The position numbers and the translations under genes are program-made. Below, in pieces: positions 8,737 through 25,452 of a stretch of DNA of 25,686 nucleotides. The notes below the pieces were generated by a model, which saw only the letters and a list, made by a program, of their open reading frames with translations, made no database searches and was not told the DNA's origin. Origin of the DNA: a virus; IMG/VR virus record IMGVR_UViG_3300006749_000108, positions 1 through 25,686 of that record; one strand, 5' to 3'. Position 1 is the first letter of the stretch, and each line of letters starts with the position of its first letter.

Positions 8737-8750
8737 ATACAGGTTTTAAT

Positions 8751-9572: not shown

Positions 9573-9573
9573 C

Positions 9574-9834
9574 ATGAAGTATGAAGAGTTGGAAAATAAA
9601 TTTGTAACATTACACAAAAAACGTTCCGAAGTTATGAAAGACATCGAGCATAACGAGAACGAAATCAACTCTATACTAGAGCGCATTTCGAGAAGCAATC
9701 TTGAGAAGGATGACTTTGCAAAAGCCAATGATAAACGTAAGCATCTTCGCAAGGAGACTGTGGAACTTAACCACAAGAAGCGAGAGCTTGAGGCACAGAT
9801 ACAACTAATAAAAATGAGAATGAAAAATGAGTAA
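9574..9834 (+). CDS. Small coiled-coil protein, 86 residues
   Basis: This is almost entirely predicted helix with Glu/Lys/Arg heptads (KYEELENKFVTLHKKRSEVM and on, ending AQIQLIKMRMKNE), so a coiled-coil dimer is expected. The start is ATG at 9574, one base after the nuclease stop, with GGAAG upstream; the same frame is open back to 9286 but that part lies over the nuclease Cys cluster and looks random. It overlaps the next gene by 8 bases. No family recognised; it could tether or regulate the nuclease. Confidence 0.75.
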   Translation: MKYEELENKFVTLHKKRSEVMKDIEHNENEINSILERISRSNLEKDDFAKANDKRKHLRKETVELNHKKRELEAQIQLIKMRMKNE

Positions 9835-10159
9835 GAAAAAATTTAATCGCACTTCGTTTTTGGGTACAGCAGACCAGCTTATCAATAGTGATAGAGCTAA
9901 AGTGTATGGGCCAGCAAAGAAAAACCATGAGGACATTGCTAAGATTTGGTCTGTGATTCTTGGTAAAGAGATAACAGCCGAACAAGTTGTTATGTGTATG
10001 ATGGGTTTAAAGATTTCACGGCTTATAAAAACACCAGAGCATGCAGATTCATGGGTGGACTTGTGTGCTTATGGAGCTATTGGAGGAGAAATAACAAATG
10101 AAAGTAATAGTGGAAAGCCCGTACAAAGGGCAAAACGAGGCAGACCGAAAAAAAAATAG
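9827..10159 (+). CDS. DUF6378-like all-helical protein with AT-hook-like tail
   Basis: This is a 110-residue protein. Residues 14-92 (LINSDRAKVYGPAKKNHEDI ... ITAEQVVMCMMGLKISRLI ... DSWVDLCAYGAI) match my memory of the DUF6378 family of phage proteins, whose helical layout and acidic/Asp pattern recall MazG-type nucleotide pyrophosphohydrolases. Hydrolysis of a nucleotide is therefore possible but unproven. The C-terminus ends in KRGRPKKK, an AT-hook-like GRP with basic flanks, which may bind DNA. That tail is the part overlapped by the next gene (62 bases). The ATG at 9827 overlaps the previous stop region by 8 bases. Confidence 0.75.
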   Translation: MSKKKFNRTSFLGTADQLINSDRAKVYGPAKKNHEDIAKIWSVILGKEITAEQVVMCMMGLKISRLIKTPEHADSWVDLCAYGAIGGEITNESNSGKPVQRAKRGRPKKK

Positions 10160-10418
10160 AGAGTTCGCACGTAAGTGTATGCTTGATTCATTAAAAAAGG
10201 GCGAGAGCCCTTTTTTATCTCACCTACTCTACACGCAAGTGCTAGACGAAGACGTAGAATCAGAAAGGCAAATAGGATTAGATGCTGCATTTAAGTGGTA
10301 TGATGTTGCAGATTATGTGGTCGTCTATACAGACAGAGGTATATCGAAAGGGATGAAGCAAGGCATAAAGGTAGCTAGAGATTTGAACAAGACTGTTGAG
10401 TACAGGTCTTTCAAATGA
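10098..10418 (+). CDS. Nucleoside 2-deoxyribosyltransferase-like protein (DUF7768-type)
   Basis: This is a 106-residue protein with a Rossmann-like start VIVESPYKG, a helix with RKCMLDSLKKGESPFLSHLLYTQ, then GLDAAFKWYDVADYVVVYTDRGISKGMKQGI. This series resembles nucleoside 2-deoxyribosyltransferase-like proteins widespread in phages (which I recall as DUF7768). Such proteins may act on modified or salvaged nucleosides. The ATG at 10098 has GGAGGAG nine bases upstream, so the 62-base overlap with the previous gene is real. It ends with an ATGA overlap into the next gene. Substrate is unknown. Confidence 0.8.
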   Translation: MKVIVESPYKGQNEADRKKNREFARKCMLDSLKKGESPFLSHLLYTQVLDEDVESERQIGLDAAFKWYDVADYVVVYTDRGISKGMKQGIKVARDLNKTVEYRSFK

Positions 10419-10609
10419 AGGAAGTAATTGTTTACAGCTTGTGGTTGCTGATTGTTCCAGACGTTGAGTCGTCGGAAGTAAAACTACACAGACTAGAGTT
10501 TACTAGCCATGCAAGTTGTTTGGTTATGGCTAACTTACTTGAACAAAAGAGAGACCCCATTGTACAGAAGAAGCAATGCCGAAGGGTCATCAAGTATCCA
10601 GCAGACTAA
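10415..10609 (+). CDS. Hypothetical small protein with hydrophobic N-terminus, 64 residues
   Basis: It starts at an ATGA overlap with the previous gene. Residues 3-14 (EVIVYSLWLLIV) are hydrophobic but too short for a confident membrane helix or signal peptide; the rest is mixed and ends in a basic segment (KKQCRRVIKYPAD). It is the last gene of the rightward unit, facing the lysis genes across 34 AT-rich bases in which I see no clear terminator. No family recognised. Confidence 0.6.
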   Translation: MKEVIVYSLWLLIVPDVESSEVKLHRLEFTSHASCLVMANLLEQKRDPIVQKKQCRRVIKYPAD

Positions 10610-10643
10610 AACAATAATAATAAGTAGTTTATTTACAAACCTG

Positions 10644-11099
10644 TTATGAGCTGAGTTCAAAGTGTGGAGCGTCAATGAAAGGACGTCTGCCTTGTGACCT
10701 ACGTAAATCTACGTAAGCGTTCATAGCTTCTTCCATTGTCCCATCCCATTCTCGAATATCTGGTATTTGCCACGCAGCACCCCAACGTACTCCAACTCCT
10801 TCGTCTTGGGCTGCTTGTTTCATTGCGTCTGCAATGTCGTCATACAAATTTAATTCCCAGGAACCTCGTGAACCAATGTAACACATTAAGTCTACAGCGT
10901 TGCCAGTAAGGTGGTGTGATTTCATCGTCTTGGATGCACCTTTTGCTACCAGCTCCTCTTGTTCTTCTTGAGTTCGCAGACCACAAATAACTCCGAAGTC
11001 AATTTTTGTAAGGGTTATGGCTTTCATAACAACAAGTTTCATGCTGTCATTCACGCCTTCAAGCTTGCCGAGGCTTCGCTCTGATAATTTAAATGTCAT
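10644..11099 (-). CDS. Endolysin: M15-family zinc peptidase (L-Ala-D-Glu/D-Ala-type)
   Basis: This 151-residue protein would cut cross-linking peptides in peptidoglycan at the end of infection. The M15 signature is complete: S61-x-H63-x2-G66-x-A68-x-D70 (SHHLTGNAVD) and H146 in DAPHFE, giving zinc ligands H63, D70 and H146 as in the T5 endolysin. There is no signal peptide, so it needs the holin encoded directly upstream, with which it shares an ATGA overlap. Its size is normal for single-domain M15 endolysins. It is the last gene of the leftward late unit. Confidence 0.9.
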   Translation of the reverse strand: MTFKLSERSLGKLEGVNDSMKLVVMKAITLTKIDFGVICGLRTQEEQEELVAKGASKTMKSHHLTGNAVDLMCYIGSRGSWELNLYDDIADAMKQAAQDEGVGVRWGAAWQIPDIREWDGTMEEAMNAYVDLRRSQGRRPFIDAPHFELSS

Positions 11100-11494
11100 T
11101 TGATTCCTTTCGTATCAGTTTTTTTCATCTTGTCATAGCTCCTCATTCCACCAATTCCGAGCATGCCAAACATCAATGGCATCATTACGGACATGTCTGC
11201 TTGTGGTATCATAATGCCAAAGCCAGCGCAAATCGGTGCGACCATGTAATTGATTCCAAGGGATAAGCCAGAAATCCAGCCAATCAAGGGTCGCCAAGAC
11301 GACTGAAACCAGTTGCCTTTAGCGTCTTCTTTTAAAACTTCTATCTGAGCCAGTGCTAATTCTTGCCCGTGACGTTCTGCCATCGTGCTTAATTCAAAAG
11401 CAATTTTATTCTTCTGGTCTTTGTCTTCTATAAATTTATCTAGTAGCCCTGTTACTGGGCCAATCAGTGCTTGTATCATTTTCTTGCCATCCAT
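11096..11494 (-). CDS. Holin, 3-TM GTA-type
   Basis: This is a 132-residue membrane protein. An amphipathic N-terminal helix (QALIGPVTGLLDKFIEDKDQ) and a helical stretch lead to SSWRPLIGWISGLSLGINYM, then hydrophobic segments around residues 70-90 and 95-115, ending in a Lys-rich tail. The WRPLIGW signature and order fit the 3-TM holin family known from alphaproteobacterial gene transfer agents and related phages. It would open the inner membrane for the endolysin. It is coupled downstream to the endolysin (ATGA) and overlaps the EF-hand protein by 19 bases, a standard lysis cassette. Confidence 0.85.
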   Translation of the reverse strand: MDGKKMIQALIGPVTGLLDKFIEDKDQKNKIAFELSTMAERHGQELALAQIEVLKEDAKGNWFQSSWRPLIGWISGLSLGINYMVAPICAGFGIMIPQADMSVMMPLMFGMLGIGGMRSYDKMKKTDTKGIK

Positions 11495-11790
11495 GCTGTT
11501 GTTCCCATATATGCGCCGACTATTCCAGCGCCTGATATATAGAATAGGTTACTAATATCCGCTAGAGCTTGTACTCGCTCTATTGGTACGAAAAACATTG
11601 CAGCAGTAAATGCACCCATAGCAATCAGTGTGAACCTAGCCATGCGTAACTGTGCTAAATTTTTTCGTAAACTCGTCTCGGTTTCTTTTATAGTCTTTAC
11701 GTGAGCAAGTTCTTCATCACTCACAATGCCATCACCGTCTTCATCATATTCTGCATACTTAGATTCTACTTGTAGTTTTTTTTGGTTCAT
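11476..11790 (-). CDS. Membrane protein with an N-terminal EF-hand, lysis cassette
   Basis: This is a 104-residue protein. Near residue 17 it has a canonical EF-hand calcium loop, DEDGDGIVSDEE, with Asp at positions 1, 3 and 5, Gly at 6, a hydrophobic residue at 8 and Glu at 12. A helical linker follows, then two hydrophobic segments (about 48-68 and 78-98) that look like membrane helices. It sits between the SNase-like gene (ATGA overlap) and the holin (19-base overlap). It may be a second holin, an antiholin or a spanin-like factor; regulation by calcium is suggested by the loop but unproven. A single EF-hand without a partner usually binds weakly unless the protein dimerises. Confidence 0.8.
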   Translation of the reverse strand: MNQKKLQVESKYAEYDEDGDGIVSDEELAHVKTIKETETSLRKNLAQLRMARFTLIAMGAFTAAMFFVPIERVQALADISNLFYISGAGIVGAYMGTTAWMARK

Positions 11791-12170
11791 CGCTTCGCCT
11801 TCAGTTCGTCTAGGCTTTTTGTTTTCTTGCCTCCGTCATACTCCCAGGCGTAACCACGATAGACCATCTCTTCATTTAAGTTCGTCTGTCCTATGTAAAT
11901 CCACCCCAACATTCTACCATACTTGCCGTCTTTTTCTGTCTTAACTTTGAGACCTGAAGGCTCGCCGTCAGCAAGACGTCTTGTAAGAAATGCTTTTGCT
12001 TCGAGCCCCATCTGCTTTTCATCGAGGTCACGTGTTCTGCTTTCTGGTGCGTCGATACCAGCAAGACGTACACGTTCTTTCTTTGTAAGGCTGAAGCCAA
12101 GGTCTATCACCATGTCGACAGTATCGCCATCAACTACTTTGGTTATTTCTTTTATGGCGTACTCGTACAT
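11787..12170 (-). CDS. Staphylococcal-nuclease-like (SNase/thermonuclease) protein
   Basis: This is a 127-residue SNase-fold nuclease. Seen: VVDGDTVDMVIDLG (calcium-binding Asp at 14 and 16), RVRLAGIDAPE with R35, D40 and E43, and KYGRMLGW with R86. These correspond to the R35/E43/R87 catalytic set and calcium ligands of staphylococcal nuclease. No signal peptide is evident. The ATG at 12170 overlaps the stop of the giant gene as TAATG. Possible roles are degrading host DNA after entry or cleaving DNA at lysis; being encoded with virion and lysis genes leaves both open. It ends in an ATGA overlap with the EF-hand gene. Confidence 0.9.
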   Translation of the reverse strand: MYEYAIKEITKVVDGDTVDMVIDLGFSLTKKERVRLAGIDAPESRTRDLDEKQMGLEAKAFLTRRLADGEPSGLKVKTEKDGKYGRMLGWIYIGQTNLNEEMVYRGYAWEYDGGKKTKSLDELKAKR

Positions 12171-15100
12171 TATTTAGTGATGCTCCTTAGATAAGACTTT
12201 GAATTGTCATCAGATTCACCAGCAACTGCATCAACGATAGCTTCTTTAGCTGCTCTGTTACCACCGACAACTGGTATCCTGTTGGCAATTTCTCTGACTG
12301 CTTGTCTTGATTTACCGCTTCCTTCTTCTGCTCCGATACCAGCAAAAACATTAGCTGCTGAGTTGCCAAGACCAAACGTTGGGCCGAGTAATGTTCCCCA
12401 CATTCTTTCTCGTCCGTAAGCTCCGTTGTCTATTTGTTCAACTGCTGTGTGCATCATGTCTCCAATAAGACCAAGACCACCCATTACAATTAAACCTTCA
12501 ACATACCAGCCAAGGAAGTTGTCTTCATCTCCGTGTACTTTCTTGTCATAGCCTAGAGATTTAAGAATGTTTCTCTTTCTAGTCTCTGGGCTTCTACCAT
12601 CATCGCCACCACGTGACTGCAAAATATCTTTTGCTGCTAGAGTTCCCATACCAAATGTTGGGCCAAGAGCTGCGAAAGCTAACAGTGGGCCAAAGTTTCC
12701 AGAGTTTGCTTCCTTCAAGACGTGTCCTGTAAGACGTGTCATCATCAGCGGGAATGACTTGAGCTGGAATACAAGCGCACCTATTGGTGTCTGAGCCCAC
12801 ATTGGCACGTCGTCTGCATTAGGTTGGAAGATAGAATCATCAGCGAATCTTATCATAGCCATCTTAACATGCTTGTCTTGCAAGACGTTTTTATCGCCAA
12901 GAGATTTTGGATTTACTTCTGCCCCAGGCAAATACATCTCAAGACCATACATCTTCAAAGCTCTGTGTGCAGTTTTGTATGATGCTGGTTGCTGTGCGTA
13001 AGGCACACCTTCCTTGAAGTTGTTAAATGCTTTCGTCTGCATAGCTTGGAAATAGTTGTAACCAGTTGCTGCTGCTATCTGTCTGTTCATATCAGTCCAG
13101 TCTGTAAGCAACGTGGCATTAAAGAAAGCATGTGATGCCTTGCCATCAGGTGCGCCATACAGATGAATCATTCTTTCGTGAATGATGTTCTCCATAGCAA
13201 CGCCTGTGTTTCTAATCGCTTGCCTCATCTCAGCATCTCTCAGGCTGAACATGCCTTTCATCCAAGACTTCATACTTCCAGAACGAATGACTGGAAGTAC
13301 CAAGTCACCAAGTGATGTAAGAGTTGTGTATGAAAGCAACGTAATGTTGTTAAAGAATCTTAAATTCCTTGAGGCTGTTTGTATTGCTTTGCCTCCCATA
13401 GTTGTTAGAGGCTTCTTCATAACAGGCTTCAAAGAACGCTCGATAAAGTCATAGTCTTGTGGTTGCAACACTCCTGTTTTGCCTTTGAAGTCATCAAGAG
13501 CATGCACGATTGCATCAGCACGTCTCTTATATGTCTGGTTCATTCTGCCAGTGCGTGGGTCTATTGGAGCTACCGCATATATAAGTTGTCTTGCAGCTGG
13601 AGCGCCAGCACCATTATGTGTGTTCACTAACTGCTCTGCAAATCTAAGAGCTTCAGCATCACTGTTTGCAAACGGCATACGTATTACGTCTTGCAAAGTA
13701 AATGTTTCCATCATGCCAGATGCGTTTGTTGCACTCCTGTCAAACCTAAACTGTTTGTTTGTTGATAGAAGTTTTGCAATTCCTTGCACACCTTCTTCAG
13801 CTACTTGCATGTAATCGTAAACAGCGTGGCTATTAATACCAAGCTCGTCCACATGGGTCATCTTTCTTGAGCTACCCTCAAAGTATTTAACAAGCAACGC
13901 ATCGAGGTCACTCTCTAAATACTTTTCTAGGTCTCGAAGCTCATCAATAAACTCTGGTTTATCAAGCTCAAGAACCCTTGAGTAATCAACGTTGTCAAAT
14001 GTTGGGCTCCTTGTTGTGCCTTTTACTGGAATAAATGTTCCGTCTGCACCATCCTCATCATCTACAAGCTTCATCATAACGCCTTCAGCAAAGTCTTTTG
14101 CTTCTTCGTCTGTAGGTGTTCTGCCATTTAGAAGTGCGTCTTTGTTGTAGTATCGTTGTAGAACTTCGAGAAACTTATCTCTGTCTTTGCCAATAGCTTT
14201 TGCGTTCCAAACTTGTGGGAAATAGTTTTGTCTATAGCCAACCATCAAGCCAGCATCTAACATGGCTTGTCTTTCTGCTTCAAAGGCACTTCTAATTTGC
14301 CTGTAAACAACACGTTCTTGGTCGGTAAGAGCTGTTTCTTGACGGCTTCCATCTCCGTAACGTAAAGCTTTTACAATCTTAGAATGTGATTTTGGTTGCT
14401 CTGCAATTTTGTCTGTGACTGTTGTCCCAACATTTACAGACTTCTTAAAATATCTTTTCAGGCTTCCATCAGAGTCAGGCAAACCTCTCATTGCCTTCTG
14501 TATTGGAAAGTATATGCCAGCAAAGCGTTGGTTCAAATTAGGGAAATGGTTTTCATACCAGTCGCCTAGCCACCTAGCACCCATATCTCTCAAGTTGTTA
14601 GACTGTGATTTAAGGAACCCAACAGGGCTAGACTTTCTAATTGTTTCTTCTTCGGCTGGTGTAAGCGTTCTCTTTCTCATAAGAGACATAAGAGCGCCAA
14701 CATAGTTTGGGTCACCGCCAGCTGATTCTAGTAGCTCTCCAAACTCACCGACAGGAATGTCATTTATGCTGTTAAAGTCTCCGTCTTGAAGACCCCTTGC
14801 CATGCTTCCTACAGCACCTTTTGGAATTGGGTTGCCTGTGGTTTGTGCATAGATGCCATATTCCATATCGTTAAACTCATCTGCGTCGATGTGTTTAATT
14901 TGATTTGAGTTAAACAAAACAGCTGTTTCATGTTGAATACTTGAAGCGCCATAAGTCCTATTAGTTTGAACGAACTCATCCCCATCATTCAAACTATTTC
15001 TGTGTGTAGTTAAGAGACCATCGTATCCCATCTCTTGTAACATATTGTTAAATTCTGCTTGAGCGCCTGTCTTACTTCTGCCACCGAAGCGAACAAAAGC

Positions 15101-18100
15101 ATCAATAACAGAATTATAAATATCTTCTCCACTTCTTGGGCCAAATGCTCTGCCATCTACGCCACGCATGCTAAGAGAAGAAATCATCTCTGCTGGCACG
15201 TCTTCTTCGTTAAACTTTGCCATGATAGCTTGCAAGAACGGGTCGTCTTCAGACTGATATATACTTGTTGCTCTGAAGTCTGCTGGGCTATCTAGTTTTA
15301 TAACTGTAGGCAAGACATCAGACTCAAACTCCATGCCATTATTTTTCATGTTTGCTACTAAACCACGCTCAACCTGTATGAGTTCGTCTAGCTGTTCTTT
15401 AACGATAACCCTCTCGTCTGCAATCTCCCGCTGCAAGTAAGCATCTGGCTGCAAAGACGCATACTGTCGTCTTAGCTTTCCAATGTCTCGTCTTACTTGT
15501 GTAAGTTCAAAAGCATCCCAGTGCAAATCTTCTTTAATAATGTCTGATAGGTTTGATTCATCTATTGCATCAACCATTGCATTGAACGTTGGTGTCCTTG
15601 CATACATCTGTGATGCAACAAAAGGATTCTCTGTTACGTAAATGCCAGGGCCGTACAACCCTATATCAGACGGACGCATCTGCACGTTTGGATTGTTTGA
15701 TTTCTTTAATTTGTTGCCACGTGGTGTACCATGATAAAAGAACAATGGCATTTGATTGGGTTCATCAAACCCGTATCCGCCTTTTACAAACCTAAGAATC
15801 TTTGTCTTCTTGTCTTTAGACATAGACATGAAACTGTCATGTGCATAATCAGCTGCATAGCTTGGGTGTGTAAGGTACTTGCCTTCTAGCGAACCAGCCA
15901 GTGGTCGAGCAGCATTGTCTTCAAACATGTCGCCATACATGGATACACGTCTGTAAGCGTTCTTAACGTCTTGTCTACCAATCTGACCATTAGCAATGTA
16001 AGAAGAATACTCTATGGTTCTGTCTATTGCCCTGTCGAGAACGGCTATGTTGGCTATGTTTTGTGTGTCGCCAGATATGCTTAGTTCGAGAATGTCATCA
16101 CGAGTTATGTCTTCTTTCATGTATCGTGATATAGAATCTCCAAACCATTCATTAGCCAGCATCTCATCTCTGGTCATGGAATAGTAACCTTCGTACTTAC
16201 TTCCATGCTTGGCAATAACTTGAGCTTTTGCTGTGTCATCAAGAGCATCGTAAGCAGCCCTTATTACGTCCATCTCGTCTTGTGGCAATGCTCCAGAACG
16301 AATGACCATATTGTTTAGTTCTGTAATACCGCTGTCTATATCTTCGCCTTTGTTTAAAGATGTAGCCAGTCGTCTTACTGTATTTCTAAAGTTTTTAAAG
16401 TCTGGGAGGTTGTAGTTTCCAAACGCACCATCTCCCGTTACAGCATAGTCACCCCTACCAAGACGAGCCATGATGTCCATAGTAATTCTGTTGGCGTTTT
16501 GCATAGTTCCATAAGATGATTTGTTAAGAATGTTCATCATTCTGTATGCAATAGTTCTGCTGACCTGTTGCATCTCTGTGTCTCTGTGAGTGATGTAAGA
16601 CAACATCTCCCTTACAGAAGCACGAGCAGCAGAAGGTATACCATCGTTTCTAACGACACCTTTGTTGTGAGCTATCTCTGTAGCAATAGCCATCTTTGAC
16701 TTTTTAAACTTAGGTTTGAGTATAGCTGCACCACCTTGTGACTTCGCACGCTTGTTGTTTGCACGTCGCACGACTTCAGCATAGGCCTCATCTACCCTAG
16801 TTTTGTCTCCTACATGCAGAGCATCTAGCAGTTCTGACTCAAGAGCATCTCCACTTAGCTTAAATGTTCCACGTGAAACACGTACTTGCTTGGCTGGCGC
16901 TGGCTGAGATTTGATTTTGTTTACAATCTCTACACCAATTTGGTCACCATACTCTGTGCCTTTATGCTTTCTGAACAAAGCAAGCAAGTCATTAAGCTTC
17001 TTGCCCTTGACTGATTCAGCTGAGTTCTGATTGATTGCTGGTGTATTCTTTGTAGTAACCCTTGTTCTGCTATTCTTCTTTGTTTTTGCAACTTGCACAG
17101 CTTCGTTAAGGGTCTGCTCTTTAATTCTTTCGTTCTTAATCTTTGTATTCTTGGCTGTTTTGCTTGGCTGAACCTTGCCGTTTGAGCGCACTGGAGGCTT
17201 GTTAGCCATGTCTGGTTTAGAACCACCAATAAGATTAGTGGTGTTTTCAACCTTTTGATAAACAGAGTTTAGCTGCTTATCAATCATGCCAATAAGGTTT
17301 TGCGTAGACGAAGCCTCTAGGTTTTTTATTCGACCAGGGATTCCTTCAGCTGGCACAAATGTTCCACCATAACCGTTGTAGTAAAAGTCTTTTAACTGTT
17401 CAGCTACTTTCTCCATATCTGCTTGAGTTGAAAAGTCACCATAGTTACGTGTGTCAAACCCGTCGTCTGTACCGTACTGTTTGCCATCAATCATTTCGTC
17501 GTAGTTATTGATTCGGTCACGAATAATCTTGACCATACCTTTTCTACCAGCTGCACCTTTTCTTAGTGGAGAGAATATAGCGTTCTCTGCACCATCTCGT
17601 GCCACTACCTTAGAGTTCGGAACCATCTCTAGCAGAAGCTGTTGCAGCTCTTTGTGAGCTTCAACAATTCCATCTGCGCTATCACGACCTATTGCACTTT
17701 CTAGGTTTTCTTTAGTGATTTGCAACTGAACAAGACGCTTTTGTATGTGCCGTCCGAAATCAGTCTTTGGCTTGTCATCTACACCAAGACGGAATGTAAC
17801 TTCTTCTTGTACATCAGGAATAATTTTAGCGAAGATAGGCTCTAGGTCTGGGTTTAGTTCAGCGCCATAGTAGTATCTGTCAAAGATACCTTTGACGTAC
17901 GTAGCAATCTTTTGCCAAAACTTCTCTGTAGCCAAATCTGGTGAGGCTTTCTTTCGAGAGACCCACATTTCAAACTGCTCTGCAAAGTATTCTTGTGGGC
18001 TTGTAGGTTGTCTTACAACATAATCAGGTCGACCTTCTTTGCTAATTGTTTGGTTCTGAAGGTAGCGTGATTCATCTATGGAGTCAGAATCTATCTTGCC

Positions 18101-21100
18101 TCCTTTGTAGTGTGTCTTGGCTATATTCCAAAACTGAGCCCTGTCTTCTGGTGTCAGAATGTTTCTGTAAGCCCAGTGACCAACCTCATGGTACAAAACG
18201 TTTATTGTGGGAGTAAGCTGAGTCATGTCAGTGCCACGACCCTGACCAGTTCTCATGGTTACAGCGTTATCTCTTTGTGTGTAATAACCTCTGTATGCCC
18301 CGATAGTATCTGTCGTCTTGCCTCTGATTAGGGGAGCCTTGTCTGGGTCTCCTCCAAGCATATCAATAAGTCTTTTGGCTCCAGCAATCTCTTCTGATGA
18401 GTGACCAGCAAAGATATTCTCTATAGCCAGCTTTGCTTCTGACCTTGTTTGAACAGGTTTGTTTACACCATCAGGTGCAATCTTAGCCATAAGGTTTTCA
18501 AGGAAAGCTATCTGCTCAATACGTGCATCCATTGCACTTTCTTTTACAGGCCACCCACCCATACTAAGCTTATCTTCCATAACCATTAAGGTTTGCCCAG
18601 TAATCGAGTTACCTTTTAATCCATTGGCTCCACGGAAACCCATCTCACCAAGGATGTTGTTTACAATGGCTACTTCTGCTTCACTTAGCTCAAGTTCTTT
18701 TTCATTAAACTCAGCTTCGTCTATAGGCTTTTTAATAACGTCTTCACGTGTTTGCCCTGGGACTTCGCCAGAAGGTAAGCTTTCAAATAGTTCTTGTCTT
18801 GCTCGTAACGTTTTGGCCTCTGCATCAAAAGGTGCGTATTTAATATCCCAGTTTGCTGGGTTTGAGTTAGGCCCACCCTTTTGACCGATAATAGCTTCTA
18901 TGCCTTTGCCTTCGCTGATTTGCTTTTGGCTAATCATACGAACATCAGCAGCATTGTTCTTTGAGCGGATAATTAGTTTCTTACCAGCACTTGTTGTTGG
19001 TACGTCTACAGTTGCTGAAGGCTCTTCAGGTACACCAGCACCTTTCTTTTGAAGTGCTTTTACAGTTCTAATAAACTTGTCTGTATCTCCGTCAGTCTGT
19101 AAATCAGCAACAAGCTTCTGAACAACCTCGTTAGTAATTGTTGGTGTTTCGTCTGTAGGCTGTTTAACTTTCTTTGTTGATTTCTTACCGATGTTCACAC
19201 CACGTGTTTTCATAAGGTATTCGTAGCTTACAAAGCTTCTCTTTGTTACGCCGTCTGCAAACAAAGTAGTGCCAGCTTTTACACGAATCTTTCTTCCATC
19301 TGGGCCTACAGCTGTTTCGCCACCAGAGATATACTTAACAACATCTGGCCCCTTGCCAGATGTTGCTTTAATAATAGCTTCTTCTTTTGCAAACTCGTTT
19401 GGTTTTACGTTTACGGAACTCTTACGAAGCATAGCTTGGATACGTCCACGTGTATCTCTACCAGCTGTTTCGTAAATGCCTTTGTTGTCGATAGACTTTT
19501 GAACAGAGCGAACCAGTGATTCGGTCTGCGTTTCAGGATTGTCTCTTGCGTTGAGAACTTGTCTCTCTGCAAGTATCTGTGCTGTTTCTTTTGAAAACTC
19601 AGGGTTGCCATCTTTAGGGTCTCGAATCTTTCTAACGAGCTGACGTATCTTTTTGAGTTCTGTTTGTGTAAAAGCCTTATCGCCTGTAGCCATACCGCTT
19701 TTGCTGAACTCATCAAACAATGCCAAGATGTCGTCTGGGTCAGACTTGTAAGAAGCTTTGTCCTGGGACATAACCCTAATCAAAGCTCTAAGACTGTTCT
19801 CGTCTACGTCAATGTCATTGCCAATGTTTGCAAGAAGCGTATCCAAGTCCCTTTGCACTTGTTGTGCATAAGAAGATGGAGGATTGTTCTTTGCAGCATT
19901 AATTGCTTTGTTAACTTGTCGTTTTGTAACACGACCAGAAGCAGATGCCTCTGCTGCTGGAATATCTTTCGGGTCAAGACCAGCTGCTAAAGCTTTTCCT
20001 CGTGACTCGCTATCAATAATAATTTCGTCTGTCTTAGCTTCTGGTTCTGCTGTAACTGTAGTTTCATTTGGTTCAGCTTTGCCTGAATCCATCATTTCTG
20101 TGAACGCTTTTCTGTCCCTAGCCAATGATGCGCTTGCTGTTACCTCGCCAACAGAATCTCGTGTAAACTTACCATCCCTACCAACAGAAATTTTGCCAGC
20201 TGCAAAATCAGCTTCAAATTGTTCTTGGGTGTACTCTTCGTTAAACCTTGATTGTATTTTTGTTTTCTGCGCTTCGTTTCTGAAAGGCATGTCATCGAAT
20301 TTAACTTCGACAGTGGCTGTAACAGTCTCGTCTGCTGGTACAGTTTCAGTCGTTGTAGTGGTAGTAGTAGTGTCAGCTTCTGAAACTGCGCCTTCTGTAC
20401 GTCCTTCGGGCGCTGCTTCTGTGGTTGTAGTGCCTTCGCCAGTAGCTTCAGTTGTTGTTGCTTCTGTTTCTACTGGGTTTGCGTCAGCAGTGTCGCTTGG
20501 CTTCGCTCTATACTGCTCAAGAATCTCGTTGATTTCAGATAAATTGAGACCGCCTCTTGTTGCTCGTCTAAACTTTGAGTAGTTTCTTTCAAAAATTGCA
20601 CGACGCTTCTGAGCTTGAGCCCTTAAGTTAGGATTGTTTGAGGCTTCAAGCTTGCTGATTTCTATTTGTTCTGCTTTTAGGTTCTCGCCAAACTCTCTAA
20701 GTGCAGCCAGTTCGTTCAGGTTTACTTCTGTTTCTGCAACAATGTCTGGGTCTATGCCGTCGTCTAGCTGACTATCGAGTAGGTCTTGCTCTTCTTTATA
20801 GAAAGTTTTTATTTGATTGATTTTCTCATCAATCTCAGCTGTAGGTGACTCTGTGGTCGCTGTTGTTTCTGTTGTCGCTGCATCACTTGGCTGGATAAAT
20901 GCGTCTGTATCTTTTGATGCTGTAACAAGTTCGTCAAAACCCGTAACGCCACGTGCTGCTACAGTGTCTGCGATTTGCTGACCTGTAAGACCTTTGCTTA
21001 TAAGCTCGTCTGTTTGGGCTGCTGTTGTGTTAATTCCACGTCTTGCACCAATAACAGCTGGTACTGGGCCAAGAACGCCACCACCAATAAGTCCACCAGT

Positions 21101-21757
21101 AGCACCGCCAATAACTGCATCCTTTGCAACTCGACCAATGCTTACTTCGTCTTCCAAGCCAAGCTGTACATCTCTAATTTGATTTGCTGTACTAATTACG
21201 CCTTCTGCACCAGCACCGATTGCAGCTTCTCGAACACCAGCGCCTATAATACCAGATTTTACACCAGCGATTGTTGCTTGCTTTCCAGTCTGACCAGCTA
21301 GATACGCTGCTTTTGCTACTTGTGCAGCTTTGCCGTACGCACCAATAACTGGAATAAGGTTTACTGGGTCAAGAATAATAGCTTTAGCAATGTCAGGCGC
21401 AGCAGAAGCAATGCCTCTACCACCTTCTTGCCAAAACATTGGGAGCTGACGCCATGCTTGCTCAAGACGTTTTGCTCTTGCTCTTGTTTCTTTACTCTCG
21501 CCTTGAGTATAAGTAGCACCAATCACTGCACCAGCAGTGTTTAGGTCTCGCCAAGTAGCGTCTTCGTAAAATTCGTCTAGGTATTCTTGGTCTGTAGAAT
21601 AAAACTGTCCGTAGTCTGCGTAGTATTTACGCAAATCTGTAAGAAATCGGGGGTCTTTTGTGATTTGGTCGGGGGATACGTTAAGGTATCCTACGTCTGT
21701 TGCACCCTCTTCTTGTGGTGTAAATGATATGCCGTCATAATTTGTTTGGTTTGCCAT
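12170..21757 (-). CDS. Giant polyvalent internal virion protein (gp16-like position) with zincin and ADP-ribosyltransferase domains
   Basis: This 3195-residue protein follows gp14- and gp15-like genes, as gp16 does in T7 (1318 residues), so it is probably ejected into the host with the DNA. Domains in order: hydrophobic Gly/Ala-rich region 113-240; Thr/Glu-rich linkers around 290 and 420-485, including eight Thr in a row; an E3-binding-domain-like motif about 582-620; a zincin metallopeptidase with HEVGH at 1190-1194 and a likely third ligand E1260; an ADP-ribosyltransferase-like domain about 2005-2290 (YHGTP with H2009, GLYGPGIYVTENP, then HETAVLFNSNQIK); long helical regions; and a hydrophobic C-terminus about 2790-3195 that may enter membranes. 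I see no lytic transglycosylase motif like that of T7 gp16. The start has GGAG seven bases upstream, and the TAGGACGAC element lies 52 bases before it. Domain calls are motif-based. Confidence 0.9.
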   Translation of the reverse strand: MANQTNYDGISFTPQEEGATDVGYLNVSPDQITKDPRFLTDLRKYYADYGQFYSTDQEYLDEFYEDATWRDLNTAGAVIGATYTQGESKETRARAKRLEQAWRQLPMFWQEGGRGIASAAPDIAKAIILDPVNLIPVIGAYGKAAQVAKAAYLAGQTGKQATIAGVKSGIIGAGVREAAIGAGAEGVISTANQIRDVQLGLEDEVSIGRVAKDAVIGGATGGLIGGGVLGPVPAVIGARRGINTTAAQTDELISKGLTGQQIADTVAARGVTGFDELVTASKDTDAFIQPSDAATTETTATTESPTAEIDEKINQIKTFYKEEQDLLDSQLDDGIDPDIVAETEVNLNELAALREFGENLKAEQIEISKLEASNNPNLRAQAQKRRAIFERNYSKFRRATRGGLNLSEINEILEQYRAKPSDTADANPVETEATTTEATGEGTTTTEAAPEGRTEGAVSEADTTTTTTTTETVPADETVTATVEVKFDDMPFRNEAQKTKIQSRFNEEYTQEQFEADFAAGKISVGRDGKFTRDSVGEVTASASLARDRKAFTEMMDSGKAEPNETTVTAEPEAKTDEIIIDSESRGKALAAGLDPKDIPAAEASASGRVTKRQVNKAINAAKNNPPSSYAQQVQRDLDTLLANIGNDIDVDENSLRALIRVMSQDKASYKSDPDDILALFDEFSKSGMATGDKAFTQTELKKIRQLVRKIRDPKDGNPEFSKETAQILAERQVLNARDNPETQTESLVRSVQKSIDNKGIYETAGRDTRGRIQAMLRKSSVNVKPNEFAKEEAIIKATSGKGPDVVKYISGGETAVGPDGRKIRVKAGTTLFADGVTKRSFVSYEYLMKTRGVNIGKKSTKKVKQPTDETPTITNEVVQKLVADLQTDGDTDKFIRTVKALQKKGAGVPEEPSATVDVPTTSAGKKLIIRSKNNAADVRMISQKQISEGKGIEAIIGQKGGPNSNPANWDIKYAPFDAEAKTLRARQELFESLPSGEVPGQTREDVIKKPIDEAEFNEKELELSEAEVAIVNNILGEMGFRGANGLKGNSITGQTLMVMEDKLSMGGWPVKESAMDARIEQIAFLENLMAKIAPDGVNKPVQTRSEAKLAIENIFAGHSSEEIAGAKRLIDMLGGDPDKAPLIRGKTTDTIGAYRGYYTQRDNAVTMRTGQGRGTDMTQLTPTINVLYHEVGHWAYRNILTPEDRAQFWNIAKTHYKGGKIDSDSIDESRYLQNQTISKEGRPDYVVRQPTSPQEYFAEQFEMWVSRKKASPDLATEKFWQKIATYVKGIFDRYYYGAELNPDLEPIFAKIIPDVQEEVTFRLGVDDKPKTDFGRHIQKRLVQLQITKENLESAIGRDSADGIVEAHKELQQLLLEMVPNSKVVARDGAENAIFSPLRKGAAGRKGMVKIIRDRINNYDEMIDGKQYGTDDGFDTRNYGDFSTQADMEKVAEQLKDFYYNGYGGTFVPAEGIPGRIKNLEASSTQNLIGMIDKQLNSVYQKVENTTNLIGGSKPDMANKPPVRSNGKVQPSKTAKNTKIKNERIKEQTLNEAVQVAKTKKNSRTRVTTKNTPAINQNSAESVKGKKLNDLLALFRKHKGTEYGDQIGVEIVNKIKSQPAPAKQVRVSRGTFKLSGDALESELLDALHVGDKTRVDEAYAEVVRRANNKRAKSQGGAAILKPKFKKSKMAIATEIAHNKGVVRNDGIPSAARASVREMLSYITHRDTEMQQVSRTIAYRMMNILNKSSYGTMQNANRITMDIMARLGRGDYAVTGDGAFGNYNLPDFKNFRNTVRRLATSLNKGEDIDSGITELNNMVIRSGALPQDEMDVIRAAYDALDDTAKAQVIAKHGSKYEGYYSMTRDEMLANEWFGDSISRYMKEDITRDDILELSISGDTQNIANIAVLDRAIDRTIEYSSYIANGQIGRQDVKNAYRRVSMYGDMFEDNAARPLAGSLEGKYLTHPSYAADYAHDSFMSMSKDKKTKILRFVKGGYGFDEPNQMPLFFYHGTPRGNKLKKSNNPNVQMRPSDIGLYGPGIYVTENPFVASQMYARTPTFNAMVDAIDESNLSDIIKEDLHWDAFELTQVRRDIGKLRRQYASLQPDAYLQREIADERVIVKEQLDELIQVERGLVANMKNNGMEFESDVLPTVIKLDSPADFRATSIYQSEDDPFLQAIMAKFNEEDVPAEMISSLSMRGVDGRAFGPRSGEDIYNSVIDAFVRFGGRSKTGAQAEFNNMLQEMGYDGLLTTHRNSLNDGDEFVQTNRTYGASSIQHETAVLFNSNQIKHIDADEFNDMEYGIYAQTTGNPIPKGAVGSMARGLQDGDFNSINDIPVGEFGELLESAGGDPNYVGALMSLMRKRTLTPAEEETIRKSSPVGFLKSQSNNLRDMGARWLGDWYENHFPNLNQRFAGIYFPIQKAMRGLPDSDGSLKRYFKKSVNVGTTVTDKIAEQPKSHSKIVKALRYGDGSRQETALTDQERVVYRQIRSAFEAERQAMLDAGLMVGYRQNYFPQVWNAKAIGKDRDKFLEVLQRYYNKDALLNGRTPTDEEAKDFAEGVMMKLVDDEDGADGTFIPVKGTTRSPTFDNVDYSRVLELDKPEFIDELRDLEKYLESDLDALLVKYFEGSSRKMTHVDELGINSHAVYDYMQVAEEGVQGIAKLLSTNKQFRFDRSATNASGMMETFTLQDVIRMPFANSDAEALRFAEQLVNTHNGAGAPAARQLIYAVAPIDPRTGRMNQTYKRRADAIVHALDDFKGKTGVLQPQDYDFIERSLKPVMKKPLTTMGGKAIQTASRNLRFFNNITLLSYTTLTSLGDLVLPVIRSGSMKSWMKGMFSLRDAEMRQAIRNTGVAMENIIHERMIHLYGAPDGKASHAFFNATLLTDWTDMNRQIAAATGYNYFQAMQTKAFNNFKEGVPYAQQPASYKTAHRALKMYGLEMYLPGAEVNPKSLGDKNVLQDKHVKMAMIRFADDSIFQPNADDVPMWAQTPIGALVFQLKSFPLMMTRLTGHVLKEANSGNFGPLLAFAALGPTFGMGTLAAKDILQSRGGDDGRSPETRKRNILKSLGYDKKVHGDEDNFLGWYVEGLIVMGGLGLIGDMMHTAVEQIDNGAYGRERMWGTLLGPTFGLGNSAANVFAGIGAEEGSGKSRQAVREIANRIPVVGGNRAAKEAIVDAVAGESDDNSKSYLRSITK

Positions 21758-21808
21758 TCGGTACTCCAGTTATCCGATAGGTTTAATTTATATTATTGCT
21801 GTATTACA

Positions 21809-21819
21809 GTCGTCCTATA
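21809..21819 (-). promoter_or_regulatory. Shared element TATAGGACGAC, copy C
   Basis: This is the third copy of the element, its TAG being the stop codon of the gp15-like gene. It precedes the giant gene by 52 bases, and a short inverted repeat (CTGTA/TACAG) and an AT-rich stretch follow. A separate promoter or processing site for the giant gene would make sense given its size. Confidence 0.45.
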
Positions 21820-23902
21820 AGTCATCCCCGTTATTGTTTTGTGTTATCCATTGAGAATAATACGTGTTGTAGTATCGCTTGATAAAGGACACAGGGTCTT
21901 GTTGAAACTCTTGATACTGGCCTGAATCTAGCTTGTTAATCATATCTCGTTTTATGTTTCGTATACCCATAAATTCCTTAACCATTTTTTGTCTCTGTCC
22001 TTGCTGACTTGCTATAACAGTAGGAATGTTAGAGTCTCTAAGAGTCCTTTCTTGGCTACTTATATTATCAACAAGAGTAGGTGCGGTTGGTGTGTTCTGC
22101 ACTTGTCTTTCGGCAATAGCAATTTGTTCTGTGATTTGCTTCATCAAAGCATCTTTTTCAGTATTAACACCATTCTGCCACCCTTCTACGTCTGTTCTAT
22201 TCCAGCCAGGGGTTCCAGCAGTAATCCACCTGTCTTTACCTTGAGCATATCTAAACGCATTTCTAAAGCTTTCAGCAGTAACTTGTTGAAGCTGATTAAG
22301 ACCAGCAGCAACACCTCTAAGGGCTCTAAGTTTTGCAGTTGCGTCAGACTCTTGTAATGCACTGGTTAGTGCAGCTTTAGCTTCGTCAAACTTCTTAGTG
22401 TATTGTGTTTTCTCGTTAGTGAACCAGTTATCAAAAGTCTGGTCTCCGTCAAAGTCACCAAGCTGTCTCCTTGTAAGGTCTTGCGTGTACTCAGTAGCTT
22501 GTTCAATCGTTGTTACGCCACGTGAGTTCTCAAGGATTGAGTTTGCTCCAGCAAGAACAGCGTTGTAATCAGAGCCTTCCTCTTTGCCCAGCCTCTTAAA
22601 GTAGTCAGACAAGAGCGACAATGTGTATGAGTTACTAAGGTCATATTTCTTAGCTAGTTCAGCAACAACGGCTGGTGCTGCAACTGCTTCTCCAGAAGTT
22701 GCTGGATTGATTTGACCTTTCTTGCCACCTGTAAAGAAGTTGAAAGCAGAGTCTTGGCTTTTCTTCAGAACTGCTGCTGGTACGCCAGCCACAGTCTTGT
22801 CTGCAAGTGATTTCTTTTCGTTATGTAGAGTGTCTTGTTCGTACTGAGATTCTACTGTTAGGCCTTCAATAATAGTATCAAAGGTACTTATTACGGCTGC
22901 TTTCTCGGCATCACCAAGAGTTGTATAATTATTTAAAAGATACTCCTCCATAAGCTTTTTGGCTGTATTAATGTCGCCTCTTGCAATAGCCACTTTGACT
23001 TGAGGAACATTTTGAACATCATTACCAAACGCAATCTTAGCTTTTTGTACTCTTTCAGCTAGCTCGTAGTTTCTGTCTTCTTCAATTTTCTTTTTAATCC
23101 TAGTGGATTCCGTTTTCATTTCGTCGACAGCTTTGTTTAGTTCGGTTTCATTTACTCCAAAACTTGTTGCATCTGTTTTAAAAGCAGCTATTGCCTCCTC
23201 AACATCGCCTCCACGCTCCATAATTGGTTTGATTTGAGCAAGAAGGTCTTTCTTCTTGTCGTACAAATATGTTTCTTTTTCTCTGTCAAGTACGGTCTTA
23301 ACTCTATCTGATACACCTTTTACTAGAAATTTTGGCACACCCAAAGCAGCAGCAGCCTGTTCTACACTAACTGTGCCGTCTGTGCTTTTCATGTACTCAA
23401 CAACCTTGGGAACAAGGGTCAAGGTTCTATCTGTTCTAACTTGGTTTATTCTGTTGGGTGTAATTACACCACTAAAATCAACGCCACTTTGTGTTTTAAG
23501 TTCATCTAAAAATTTTGTAAATTCTTCTGTAGGAAGACCCGTCTCTTCATTTATAGGACTACCGCCAAACCTTAAGGTAAGGTCATCACTTATGTTTGCT
23601 GCTTTTGAAAACAAATCAAATTTACTTGCAGCAGCAGCTTGAGCTTCTTGGTTTTTCTTGGCTTGCAGTGCTTCAGCATTGCGCTTACCAATAATATTCA
23701 AGACGTCTGCGCTAGGCATGCCACCAGCAAGATAGTTTCTGCCAGCAGCAGCTTGGTCTACAAAAGACTGCATCTCCATAGGCGAAGCGTATGGGTTTGT
23801 TTGTCTAAAATCGTTAAAAGCTTTAGCCAACTCAAGACGTCTACGTTCGTCTGAGTCCATTTGCTTGTTATAGCCTGTCCCGAATCCTACAAAATCTACC
23901 AT
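21815..23902 (-). CDS. Internal virion protein, T7 gp15-like by position and size
   Basis: This is a 695-residue, largely helical, charged protein with no visible membrane segment or enzyme motif. It begins with a short ordered region containing NPYASPMEMQSFVDQAAAG, then long helices rich in Lys, Glu and Ala, and ends with IKRYYNTYYSQWITQNNNG. Size (T7 gp15 is 747) and its place between a gp14-like and a gp16-like gene suggest it forms part of the internal core or ejectosome tube. Sequence similarity to gp15 is not evident to me, so the role is inferred. The ATG at 23902 has GAGGT upstream, eight bases after the previous stop. Confidence 0.8.
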   Translation of the reverse strand: MVDFVGFGTGYNKQMDSDERRRLELAKAFNDFRQTNPYASPMEMQSFVDQAAAGRNYLAGGMPSADVLNIIGKRNAEALQAKKNQEAQAAAASKFDLFSKAANISDDLTLRFGGSPINEETGLPTEEFTKFLDELKTQSGVDFSGVITPNRINQVRTDRTLTLVPKVVEYMKSTDGTVSVEQAAAALGVPKFLVKGVSDRVKTVLDREKETYLYDKKKDLLAQIKPIMERGGDVEEAIAAFKTDATSFGVNETELNKAVDEMKTESTRIKKKIEEDRNYELAERVQKAKIAFGNDVQNVPQVKVAIARGDINTAKKLMEEYLLNNYTTLGDAEKAAVISTFDTIIEGLTVESQYEQDTLHNEKKSLADKTVAGVPAAVLKKSQDSAFNFFTGGKKGQINPATSGEAVAAPAVVAELAKKYDLSNSYTLSLLSDYFKRLGKEEGSDYNAVLAGANSILENSRGVTTIEQATEYTQDLTRRQLGDFDGDQTFDNWFTNEKTQYTKKFDEAKAALTSALQESDATAKLRALRGVAAGLNQLQQVTAESFRNAFRYAQGKDRWITAGTPGWNRTDVEGWQNGVNTEKDALMKQITEQIAIAERQVQNTPTAPTLVDNISSQERTLRDSNIPTVIASQQGQRQKMVKEFMGIRNIKRDMINKLDSGQYQEFQQDPVSFIKRYYNTYYSQWITQNNNGDDL

Positions 23903-23910
23903 ATTCTACC

Positions 23911-25452
23911 TCAAGAACCTGTCAGGTTATTAAAAAATTTATTAAATGATTGGTCTATGCTGTAGAACAGACCATCATTTTGTTTTACTCCACTGCCTGG
24001 GATTACTTTGCCGTCTGCATCATACTGAAACGTCATTCCCCCAGCCTGTGATTGGTCGTTTACAAACTGACCAAAAGACTGACCAAAGTTTTGACCAGCT
24101 GTTTGGGCTCTGTTTTGCATGTTATTAGCGTATGAGCCAAGCTGACTCATCATTTGGTTACCTATACTTGTAGCGTTACCAAGATAGTTTGAGCTATCAA
24201 GACTGACTGCTGCTGGGTTGAATATGCCAGACTTAACATTAAAGCCCTGATTAGTAGCCATGCTTGTTGGTCTGGTGTAGTTGGCTAGGTTTGCTGTCAT
24301 CAATGCTGGGTTGTTGTATATTGAACTGCCAATAGCAACAGGAGCCCTAAAATCATTTGCACTGCTAATGTTTCTGTTTATGATTGATGACGGTATCATT
24401 CGTGCATAGTTGAATCCTGATAGTGCTGATGGTGCGCTTGGAAGATTAGCTAGTTGCTGTAGTCCTGTACCAGCTACACCAGCTGTCTCTGCAAGCAATT
24501 TGCTTCTTGCATCCATAATGTTGCCCACATTTGTGCCGAAGACTTGTTCTCTTCCAGAGATGTATTTTAGTGCATCGTCATAAGCTGAATCTCTGGCTTT
24601 TGAATATTCGTTTGCAAGACGTGCTGCAATATCACCACGAACTGCTGTGCCTTTTGTGCTGTCATCCATGCCCTGACGTATAAGACCAGCCTCGCCTACA
24701 GAAGCTACCGCTTCTGCTGCTCGGTCTACGTCTGAAATATTTTGAGCTGTTCGCTTGTCTATTTCTGACTGTATGTCTCCTTCGGATACAGCTGCTGGAA
24801 TAGGAACGTAACCAAGCTGAGAAGCAGTTTGGTTTACAGCGCCTTGTAATCCAAGTATCTGATTAAGTATTTGGTCACGCACAGCCATACCGTCAGCACG
24901 CTCAAGACGTGCTGTATCTTGTGCATCAAGAGCCATGTTTACAAGAAAGTCACGCTCTATCTGTGCTGTTGCTCTGTCTTGTAAGAAACGTCTTAGCTCT
25001 TCATCACGTTCACCAGATGCCGTTGCTCTAGCTAAGTTAAGTTGTTGTATAGCAAAAGCTCGCTCTTGCTCGCTAATGTCCTGTCCTTTGAGGAGTTGTT
25101 CTAGTCTAAATGTAGAAAGACGTGCAGCCTCTTTGTCCTGAAGAATCTGACGTTCAATGTCTGATTCTCTTTCCTTCAACAAAGCCCTCTTAAAGTTGTC
25201 TAGCTCAGACATTTGGAACTCACGTTCCTGTCCAGCAAGCCTCCTGTTAAGAGCTTCTATTTGTTGTAGATACTGATTTTGCTCTCTACGCTCTTTACGT
25301 GCATCTTGAGCCAGCATAAAGTTTGCATTTTGGAACTGTCTTTGCGATTCCATCTGCTGCATCTGCAAAGACCTTGCAGCTGCTGCGTCCTTTGATGCTT
25401 GGTTTGCTGCGTATAAGTTACCAGCTAATCCTAATATTGCGCTAAATGCCAT
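23911..25452 (-). CDS. Internal virion protein, T7 gp14-like by position
   Basis: This is a 513-residue protein. The N-terminus has one short hydrophobic segment (FSAILGLAGNLYAANQA), a feature of gp14-type proteins that reach the host outer membrane, followed by a Gln/Arg/Glu-rich coiled-coil region (about 25-190) and a Ser/Asn/Ala-rich, low-complexity second half. T7 gp14 is 196 residues, so this one is much longer. The order gp14-like, gp15-like, gp16-like is the best evidence. The ATG at 25452 follows the previous stop by 12 bases, with GGGG upstream at slightly long spacing. Confidence 0.8.
   Translation of the reverse strand: MAFSAILGLAGNLYAANQASKDAAAARSLQMQQMESQRQFQNANFMLAQDARKERREQNQYLQQIEALNRRLAGQEREFQMSELDNFKRALLKERESDIERQILQDKEAARLSTFRLEQLLKGQDISEQERAFAIQQLNLARATASGERDEELRRFLQDRATAQIERDFLVNMALDAQDTARLERADGMAVRDQILNQILGLQGAVNQTASQLGYVPIPAAVSEGDIQSEIDKRTAQNISDVDRAAEAVASVGEAGLIRQGMDDSTKGTAVRGDIAARLANEYSKARDSAYDDALKYISGREQVFGTNVGNIMDARSKLLAETAGVAGTGLQQLANLPSAPSALSGFNYARMIPSSIINRNISSANDFRAPVAIGSSIYNNPALMTANLANYTRPTSMATNQGFNVKSGIFNPAAVSLDSSNYLGNATSIGNQMMSQLGSYANNMQNRAQTAGQNFGQSFGQFVNDQSQAGGMTFQYDADGKVIPGSGVKQNDGLFYSIDQSFNKFFNNLTGS

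Follow-up and report, generated by a model that had tools for sequence, protein, structure and literature searches.

A giant gp16-like candidate ejection protein with predicted metallopeptidase and ADP-ribosyltransferase domains in a phage sequence from IMG/VR

Main features of the giant protein

A 25,686-nucleotide stretch of viral DNA (IMG/VR record IMGVR_UViG_3300006749_000108, positions 1 to 25,686; hereafter the window) encodes a giant protein of 3,195 residues that is probably a virion-packaged ejection protein of the T7 gp16 kind that has absorbed enzyme modules. The gene lies at 12170..21757 on the minus strand as a single open frame, as seen from the list of open reading frames (ORFs) and the translation; a preliminary description made from the letters alone gave these positions and the length correctly and left out the strand. 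The protein carries an N-terminal module, a linker, a predicted zincin metallopeptidase domain (zincin-1), a degenerate second one (zincin-2), a predicted ADP-ribosyltransferase (ART) domain and a conserved C-terminal core. Zincin-1 and the ART domain both keep complete active residues. All positions given below for parts of the giant gene are on the minus strand.

The presence of metallopeptidase and ART domains in packaged and injected phage proteins was already set out by Iyer et al. in 2017 (PMC5512222, cited here and below from the available sections of its text), together with the possibility that such proteins process themselves and modify the host early on; this polyvalent-protein theme was revisited in 2022 (PMC9503650, likewise available in part). 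The idea in the preliminary description is therefore not new. Like the polyvalent proteins, the window protein joins several unrelated predicted enzyme domains in one large polypeptide and is encoded beside virion and late genes; it represents a gp16-like variant with tandem zincins and an ART, in which no RNA polymerase was found. In the open-licence PubMed Central literature, no publication on the enzymes of this protein family was found among the matches listed. The same searches gave no print account of a polymerase-free, gp16-like ejection protein that carries an ART and a metallopeptidase, of tandem zincins retained in alternation, or of the ART-like identity of the cyanophage A4 domain described below.

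The C-terminal core and its likeness to ejectosome proteins

The C-terminal conserved core spans residues 2360-3150 (12308..14680), of which residues ~2377-2864 are gp16-like by predicted fold. Of the four parts aligned for the same relatives it is the best conserved, with 52-61 per cent identity to seven proteins that share 29-50 per cent with the window protein in the zincin. In the VIA comparison, the C-terminal model is matched by the T7 core chain 9jyy_I (Z 12.3, root-mean-square deviation (rmsd) 6.1 over 278 residues), the PhiM1 ejectosome chain 8vb2_A (Z 12.2, 7.1 over 291), chain 7eyb_I, labelled 'core proteins' (Z 10.6), and the E1004 chain 9vvp_W (Z 10.3). Four of the five highest rows are core or ejectosome chains, within model residues 389-907, which correspond to residues 2348-2866 of the window protein; the next row is an unrelated protein matching another part of the model (Z 8.8). 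Because several ejectosome structures agree, the match was accepted, and the predicted fold of the core best matches T7 gp16 and other ejectosome cores.

The same model returned from BFVD phage proteins annotated as polyvalent (to 4.6e-41), a structural protein of KPP25 (5.6e-9) and, in addition, several proteins bearing the name internal virion protein (1.7e-6 to 8e-4). Similar relations appear in the sequence, where PHROG 6958, a virion structural protein, matches residues 2845-3008 (E 7e-7), and tblastn matches the KPP25 'virion structural protein' in residues 2948-3050 (3e-5, also for relatives of KPP25) and, separately, Aeromonas phage phiA008 (1e-6). The giant gene sits in a late-gene setting, given this PHROG match and the holin and endolysin genes downstream.

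The preliminary description had placed the protein in the position of T7 gp16. The late setting and the C-terminal model bear this out, but no gp16 sequence model and no transglycosylase domain support it: the window protein has no gp16 match in PHROG at 0.1 or in Pfam at E 1, and no Pfam transglycosylase match at E 1. Pfam also found nothing in ten divergent C-termini of the family, and profile searches of the Protein Data Bank (PDB) with the C-terminal and the ART plus C-terminal alignments gave no trustworthy match. With the whole window protein, phmmer found no PDB match, and NCBIfam gave only two weak matches, far below cut-off. Like T7 gp16, the giant belongs to a late block and follows two other large, unassigned ORFs; it shares the predicted fold of residues ~2377-2864 with the T7 gp16, PhiM1 and E1004 cores. 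In contrast to the T7 chain of 1,223 residues, it has 3,195 residues and added enzyme modules, and lacks a match to the lytic transglycosylase domain and the sequence model of gp16.

The first zincin domain

Zincin-1 occupies residues ~1050-1320 (17798..18610). Its HEVGH motif (residues 1190-1194, 18176..18190) is the sole HExxH of the window protein, with 0.02 expected from composition, and E1256 within EYFAEQF (17990..17992), which the model places close to the beginning of a helix, is the candidate third metal ligand. Both the motif and the later Glu, pointed out in the preliminary description, are conserved in the family. Among 81 added ORFs, H1190 is kept in 78, E1191 in 76, and H1194 and E1256 in 75 each, in a set that includes near-duplicates. 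Relatives found with the zincin alignment are biased towards live zincin-1, since the DNA patterns used to find them encode the zincin motif. In a set of 75 family proteins placed on a tree (71 different rows, built by a quick method and with long branches), the zincin-1 ligands are intact in 69 and dead in six.

An AlphaFold2 model of residues 1030-1345, built from 52 sequences, reached a predicted local distance difference test score (pLDDT) of 81 and a predicted template modelling score (pTM) of 0.82. It shows the three strands, the HExxH helix and the later Glu-bearing helix of a zincin: in model numbering, strands 114-118, 128-131 and 136-140, a helix at 155-170 with HEVGH at 161-165, and a helix at 225-240 with E227. 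Zincin peptidases are the top PDB matches in Foldseek, and VIA found a lethal-factor peptidase chain (Z 7.0, rmsd 4.0 over 138 residues) and a Pro-Pro endopeptidase, PPEP (Z 5.6), although Z values under 8 may reflect fold only. Peptidases of the lethal-factor type form family M34. The matches support a zincin fold for the modelled domain, assign it to no peptidase family and say nothing on its targets. Pfam gave scattered weak matches in zincin-1, with Peptidase_M91 in four of 54 members and two other families in one member each.

Measured against two close relatives, the ratio of nonsynonymous to synonymous substitution rates (dN/dS) is 0.085-0.095 over the whole giant gene, 0.07-0.09 in zincin-1, and 0.038 and 0.044 in the ART domain, the lowest of any part. 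The gene is under purifying selection against both relatives.

The ART domain and the cyanophage A4 pre-ejectosome

The ART domain covers residues ~1975-2310 (14828..15835), with the conserved H2009 in FYHGT (15731..15733), Y2040 in YGPGIY (15638..15640) and D2246 in GYDG (15020..15022). Iyer et al. (2017, PMC5512222) place the active-site residues of polyvalent ARTs as H in strand 1, Y in strand 2 and D in strand 5; judged by residue, the H-Y-D set of the ART-PolyVal/Tox-ART-HYD2 type is present here. Among 76 added ORFs, again including near-duplicates, H and Y are each kept in 72 and D in all 76. The Pfam family PF18760 (ART-PolyVal) matches the whole window protein at E 0.0011 and the domain alone at 6.6e-6, each time below the gathering score, so that Pfam taken alone gives a weak identification for this protein. 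The ART-like domain named in the preliminary description is nevertheless backed by three lines, since 31 of 45 family members (the window protein included) match ART-PolyVal at E 0.01 or better, with a best value of 1.3e-9, the triad is conserved, and the fold of the model agrees. Structure prediction, which had been put forward as the check for both enzymes, gave a zincin fold for the one and an ART/PARP-like fold for the other; the lack of either fold, named there as grounds for refutation, was not observed. In VIA, the ART part is closest to chain 9k3a_B, with Z 10.4 and an rmsd of 4.2 over 178 residues; tankyrase-2 follows at Z 6.6 and PARP2 at Z 6.4, and weak profile matches to tankyrases (E 0.2-0.7) point in the same direction as the fold.

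The preliminary description had likened this activity to the Alt/ModA strategy of T4, a comparison that does not hold in detail. T4 Alt is a packaged, injected and early-acting ADP-ribosyltransferase, but its active site is R-S-E, and the available sections of Iyer et al. (2017, PMC5512222) do not describe it as part of an ejection conduit; ModA, according to the same source, is not injected. An Alt-type ART was rejected for the window protein because its triad is H-Y-D.

Chain 9k3a_B comes from the pre-ejectosome of cyanophage A4 and matches ORF27 of Anabaena phage A-4L (L194:20116-25269), annotated only as a tail protein, over all 1,717 residues. ORF27 carries YHGT at 1425 and GTYFS at 1446, with the corresponding Asp near 1580, and has no HExxH. 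Against the ART profile, hhalign gives E 0.00038 for the first block of ORF27 and 0.11 for the second; HMMER gave no significant ART match for ORF27, and Pfam finds nothing. Residues ~1423-1610 look like an H-Y-D ART-like domain in this comparison. Since 9k3a_B holds the full ORF27 sequence, a domain of this fold is already resolved in a podophage pre-ejectosome; its ART identity is our own reading of fold and motifs together. The A4/A-4L protein would accordingly share with the window protein an ART-like domain with H, Y and D motifs, within an experimentally resolved pre-ejectosome protein; it differs in its length of 1,717 residues and its lack of HExxH. This likeness makes the claim that conduit proteins are also enzymes testable on an existing isolate.

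These structures also bear on whether the giant belongs to the ejection tube at all. It could be a polyvalent head protein outside the tube, an Alt-like cargo near the portal whose C-terminal core serves packaging or portal binding, and such a role would suit the description of phage polyvalent proteins as packaged and encoded near virion genes (PMC5512222). The C-terminal core, however, matches the T7, PhiM1 and E1004 cores, the ART part matches a solved pre-ejectosome chain, and the N4 virion RNA polymerase (vRNAP) is itself now described as the third ejection protein in a preprint available in part. Cargo outside the tube appears quite unlikely.

The second zincin region and retention of active sites

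A conserved region between zincin-1 and the ART domain (residues ~1700-1920, 15998..16660) is a second, degenerate zincin-like domain that the preliminary description missed; its catalytic His residues are lost in the window protein. Alignment places the remains of the HExxH at T1812, E1813 and N1816 (TELNN, 16310..16324), and E1870 in NEWFG (16148..16150) is the counterpart of the downstream Glu. In 17 of 31 aligned members, the window protein not being one of them, the region reads HE[IV][GAS]H followed by E-W-[FYA] 50-60 residues on. A profile of the live zincin-2 aligns with that of zincin-1 with a probability of 95 and E 2e-8 over the HExxH and the later Glu; the control profiles gave E 0.42 for the ART, 0.092 for the N-module and 0.85 for the C-terminus. 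Pfam gave no match in the middle part of 31 family members. Judged by its residues, zincin-2 of the window protein is a pseudo-zincin, predicted to be catalytically dead.

Among the 75 proteins on the tree, both zincin sites are live in 31, only the first in 38 (the window type), only the second in six and neither in none, so that the catalytic columns of zincin-2 are live in 37. Zincin-2 changes state at least six times on the tree; zincin-1 changes once, because the six proteins with a dead zincin-1 form one clade. The observation that the two sites are never both dead is suggestive and not significant, since the loss of zincin-1 is a single event and the tree was built quickly and has long branches. 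The view that the zincin is dispensable, drawn from the six dead zincin-1 sequences, was overturned by the live second zincin in the same six. Among the 38 proteins without a live zincin-2, L085 carries a further HExxH elsewhere in the zincin-2 region. This protein (L085:6143-17416) has 3,758 residues and matches zincin-1 twice, at 1243-1550 and at 2153-2451; any ART match in it is very weak.

The ART triad is present in 58 of the 75 proteins and changed in four, while 13 have no ART call, with at least five changes on the tree; Pfam found nothing in three ART-less proteins.

Losses of this kind raise the question of whether the two enzyme folds, zincin and ART, serve the ejectosome mainly as structural elements, with catalysis vestigial or irrelevant and the protein acting only as a conduit. 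Sites that are not intact (zincin-2 in 38 of 75, zincin-1 in six, a changed ART triad in four) would agree with this. They are outweighed by the intact zincin-1 ligands in 69 proteins and the intact triad in 58, by the fact that none of the 75 lacks both zincin sites, by a dN/dS that is lowest in the ART (0.04), and by the complete active residues of zincin-1 and the ART in the window protein. A purely structural role is unlikely. The clade with a dead zincin-1, the lineages with a dead zincin-2 and those without an ART offer natural contrasts for the role of each enzyme.

Proposed mechanism

An ejection protein of the gp16 kind with enzyme modules would be stored in the phage head and pass out through the tail, either ahead of the DNA or together with it, and the modules at its two ends would help to build a conduit at the inner membrane. 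The zincin may cut the giant itself, thereby freeing modules after entry, or process partner proteins, or cut envelope or defence proteins of the host, and the ART may, ahead of phage transcription, modify at least one host macromolecule. For the zincin, a role in processing the giant or its partners is slightly favoured over host targets, because each of the 75 proteins keeps at least one intact zincin site and which one varies. By analogy with Alt, host RNA polymerase could be the ART target, although this seems unlikely. The ejection of a multi-domain protein of 3,000 residues is plausible, as N4 gp50 is described as a third ejection protein in the available part of the preprint.

Several results weigh against this view. 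For the C-terminus, the VIA Z values remain below about 13, where matches among helical proteins can reflect a common arrangement; Foldseek gave a best PDB E of only 0.017 for the ART plus C-terminal model (residues 1960-3150), which itself reached a pLDDT of 72 and a pTM of 0.44; and the TM-scores of the BFVD matches, taken by query length, do not exceed 0.36. The best PDB E of the zincin-1 model in Foldseek is 0.02, with none at 0.001 or better. The window ART domain scores 27.4 bits against a gathering cut-off of 31.2 for PF18760. With 13 of the 75 proteins showing no ART and four a changed triad, the scaffold does not depend on the ART. Nor may the protein need to be a single polypeptide, because the gene is broken in two relatives, Roseobacter phage CRP-810 and L071, and the N-module of a third, L079, stands on a separate ORF. 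No virion proteomics of CRP-810 was found in the available part of its paper (PMC11288001).

If the gp16-like protein with enzyme modules is what it appears to be, a widespread phage family has conduit proteins that double as enzymes acting before transcription. The giant would link ejectosome structural biology, in which large cores are treated as conduits, with polyvalent-effector theory, in which packaged enzymes are predicted and seldom localised. A more far-reaching version, in which an ejection-tube protein with tandem zincins, at least one of them kept alive, cuts itself after entry and frees a cytoplasmic ART, is a self-processing delivery device that we consider tentative and rather doubtful. 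Were it true, a single gene product would serve both as tube protein and as first host-modifying enzyme, and phages lacking their own RNA polymerase would modify the host at DNA entry.

The N-terminal part and the relation to virion RNA polymerases

The N-terminal module (residues 1-290, 20888..21757) was delimited by alignment of 11 sequences and by hydropathy. Gly/Ala-rich hydrophobic stretches at residues ~123-141 and ~214-232 make it a candidate membrane or portal-side part. It is followed by a linker of low conservation in the alignment (residues 291-1029, 18671..20887). Pfam found no match in the N-terminal third of the window protein, and a PDB profile search with the N-module gave no trustworthy match. 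PHROG 342, an internal virion protein with an endolysin domain, matches one of 28 family N-terminal regions (1.3e-4). In five of the 28 members, Pfam E3_binding (PF02817) occurs in the N-terminal linker (best E 3.4e-11).

N4 gp50, the vRNAP, is like the window protein a giant protein in a similar genome position; according to the available part of the preprint it is ejected, its N-domain enters membrane nanodiscs and its C1 domain bears an HExxH. It has a single-subunit RNA polymerase, whereas the window protein has no polymerase match in Pfam or PHROG. The window protein might be a remnant of an N4-type vRNAP that lost its polymerase domain and kept an N-module, a zincin and a C-terminal domain. 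A similar convergent position behind single-stranded DNA-binding (SSB) genes speaks for this: on the opposite strand of the window, genes for a Sak4-like annealing protein (7446-8201, plus strand; PHROG 124, 2.9e-31), an SSB-like protein (8204-8689, plus strand; PHROG 6015, 2e-5) and a Cas4 exonuclease converge on the late block of the giant, as the Sak4 and SSB genes of N4 and LIT1 and the SSB gene of S6 do on the vRNAP gene. CRP-810 gp36, a relative of the giant's N-terminal part, also matches the vRNAP PHROG 2206 at 5.8e-5, and the vRNAPs of Roseovarius Plymouth podovirus 1 (RPP1), EE36phi1 and an IMG/VR locus, L196, carry an HGT-type ART motif and two HExxH. Profile alignment of the family with seven vRNAPs, one of them partial, was not significant, however (best E 0.0093, probability 4), none of 28 family N-terminal regions matches the vRNAP PHROG at 0.001, and the N4 C2 domain has no reported structural relatives in the available part of the preprint, while the window C-terminus resembles gp16. 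A vRNAP remnant is very unlikely, and an N4 vRNAP simply minus its polymerase was rejected, as neither single-sequence nor profile alignments were significant and the gp36 match is absent from the 28 N-terminal regions.

RPP1, which combines an ART with an RNA polymerase (PMC5512222), shares with the window protein a zincin-like metallopeptidase and an H-Y-D ART in a late-gene giant. It differs in the order of its parts, with YHGT at 1028 before HExxH at 1291 and 2520 (motifs only), whereas the window ART follows the zincins, and in its RNA polymerase, which was not found in the window; the window protein has instead a gp16-like C-terminus. Its vRNAP and those of EE36phi1 and L196 are loci L192, L197 and L196. 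The vRNAPs of N4, LIT1, S6 and VBP47 (partial) have one HExxH each and no HGT-type ART motif.

Relatives, sampling and gene breakage

Roseobacter phage CRP-810, on which the description of a marine phage family was based (PMC11288001), is the closest isolate, and its homology covers almost the full length of the giant. The counterpart in CRP-810 (L023:12613-22253) lies after the capsid and other structural genes, with neighbours similar to those of the window, and differs in being read as three overlapping ORFs: gp36, annotated 'internal virion protein D', and the hypothetical gp35 and gp34, which match residues 27-367, 404-2365 and 2355-3186, respectively. The record names no ART or peptidase in gp34-gp36, and no RNA polymerase is annotated among gp06-gp63 of its 63 genes. 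The start of gp35 is TTG with only a purine-rich stretch ahead, and that of gp34 falls within a short direct repeat, in its second copy; the split may be either real breakage or a sequence error. A designed split marking processing sites was rejected. Because the junctions resemble frame changes and the giant of L071 (6550-16406) is split into three overlapping frames at other breakpoints, nothing was inferred on processing sites. In L079, the N-module has its own ORF (1265-3037), about 5 kb upstream of the remaining giant (7949-16561). The CRP-810 record also annotates cobaltochelatase subunits CobS and CobT (L023:38178-41996).

A scan of viral contigs found 22 loci with the whole protein as query, 27 relatives through the ART, and larger numbers through the zincin (best 80 of 167 relatives) and the C-terminus (best 80 of 156). 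Once contained copies had been taken out, 114 ORFs carrying one or more family modules were left. Long relatives show the order N-module, zincin, ART where present and C-terminal core; exceptions are the broken genes of CRP-810 and L071, L079, and the distant L024-L026 with one module each. Bacterial genomes gave one match, on a small contig of a Rhodobacteraceae bin, and plasmids none. Through the C-terminal alignment, 66 distinct ORFs were found, in which zincin-1 is live in 35, dead in six and not shown in 25, and the H-Y-D triad is present in 51, leaving 15 without an ART call. All but one of these 15 also lack a zincin call, and the 12 of them that are listed are all cut by a contig end; L184 is one long ORF among the 15.

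Neighbouring genes in the window

The giant gene starts with ATG, six bases behind a GGAG at 21764-21767. Upstream on the same strand lie a 695-residue ORF (21815..23902) and a 513-residue ORF (23911..25452), both candidate partner ejection proteins by position only. The former has no Pfam family at E 1 and PHROG matches only at 0.06 or worse, and the latter has no PHROG match at 0.1. In reading direction, the 513- and 695-residue ORFs precede the giant, which is followed by a nuclease-like ORF, a small ORF, a holin and an endolysin. These late lysis genes occupy 10644..11494 on the minus strand, with the endolysin at 10644-11099 (PHROG 465, 2e-49) and the holin at 11096-11494 (PHROG 3427, 1.2e-29). 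Between the replication and the lysis genes, at 9827-10418, small overlapping ORFs match PHROG families of phosphofructokinase and nucleoside 2-deoxyribosyltransferase.

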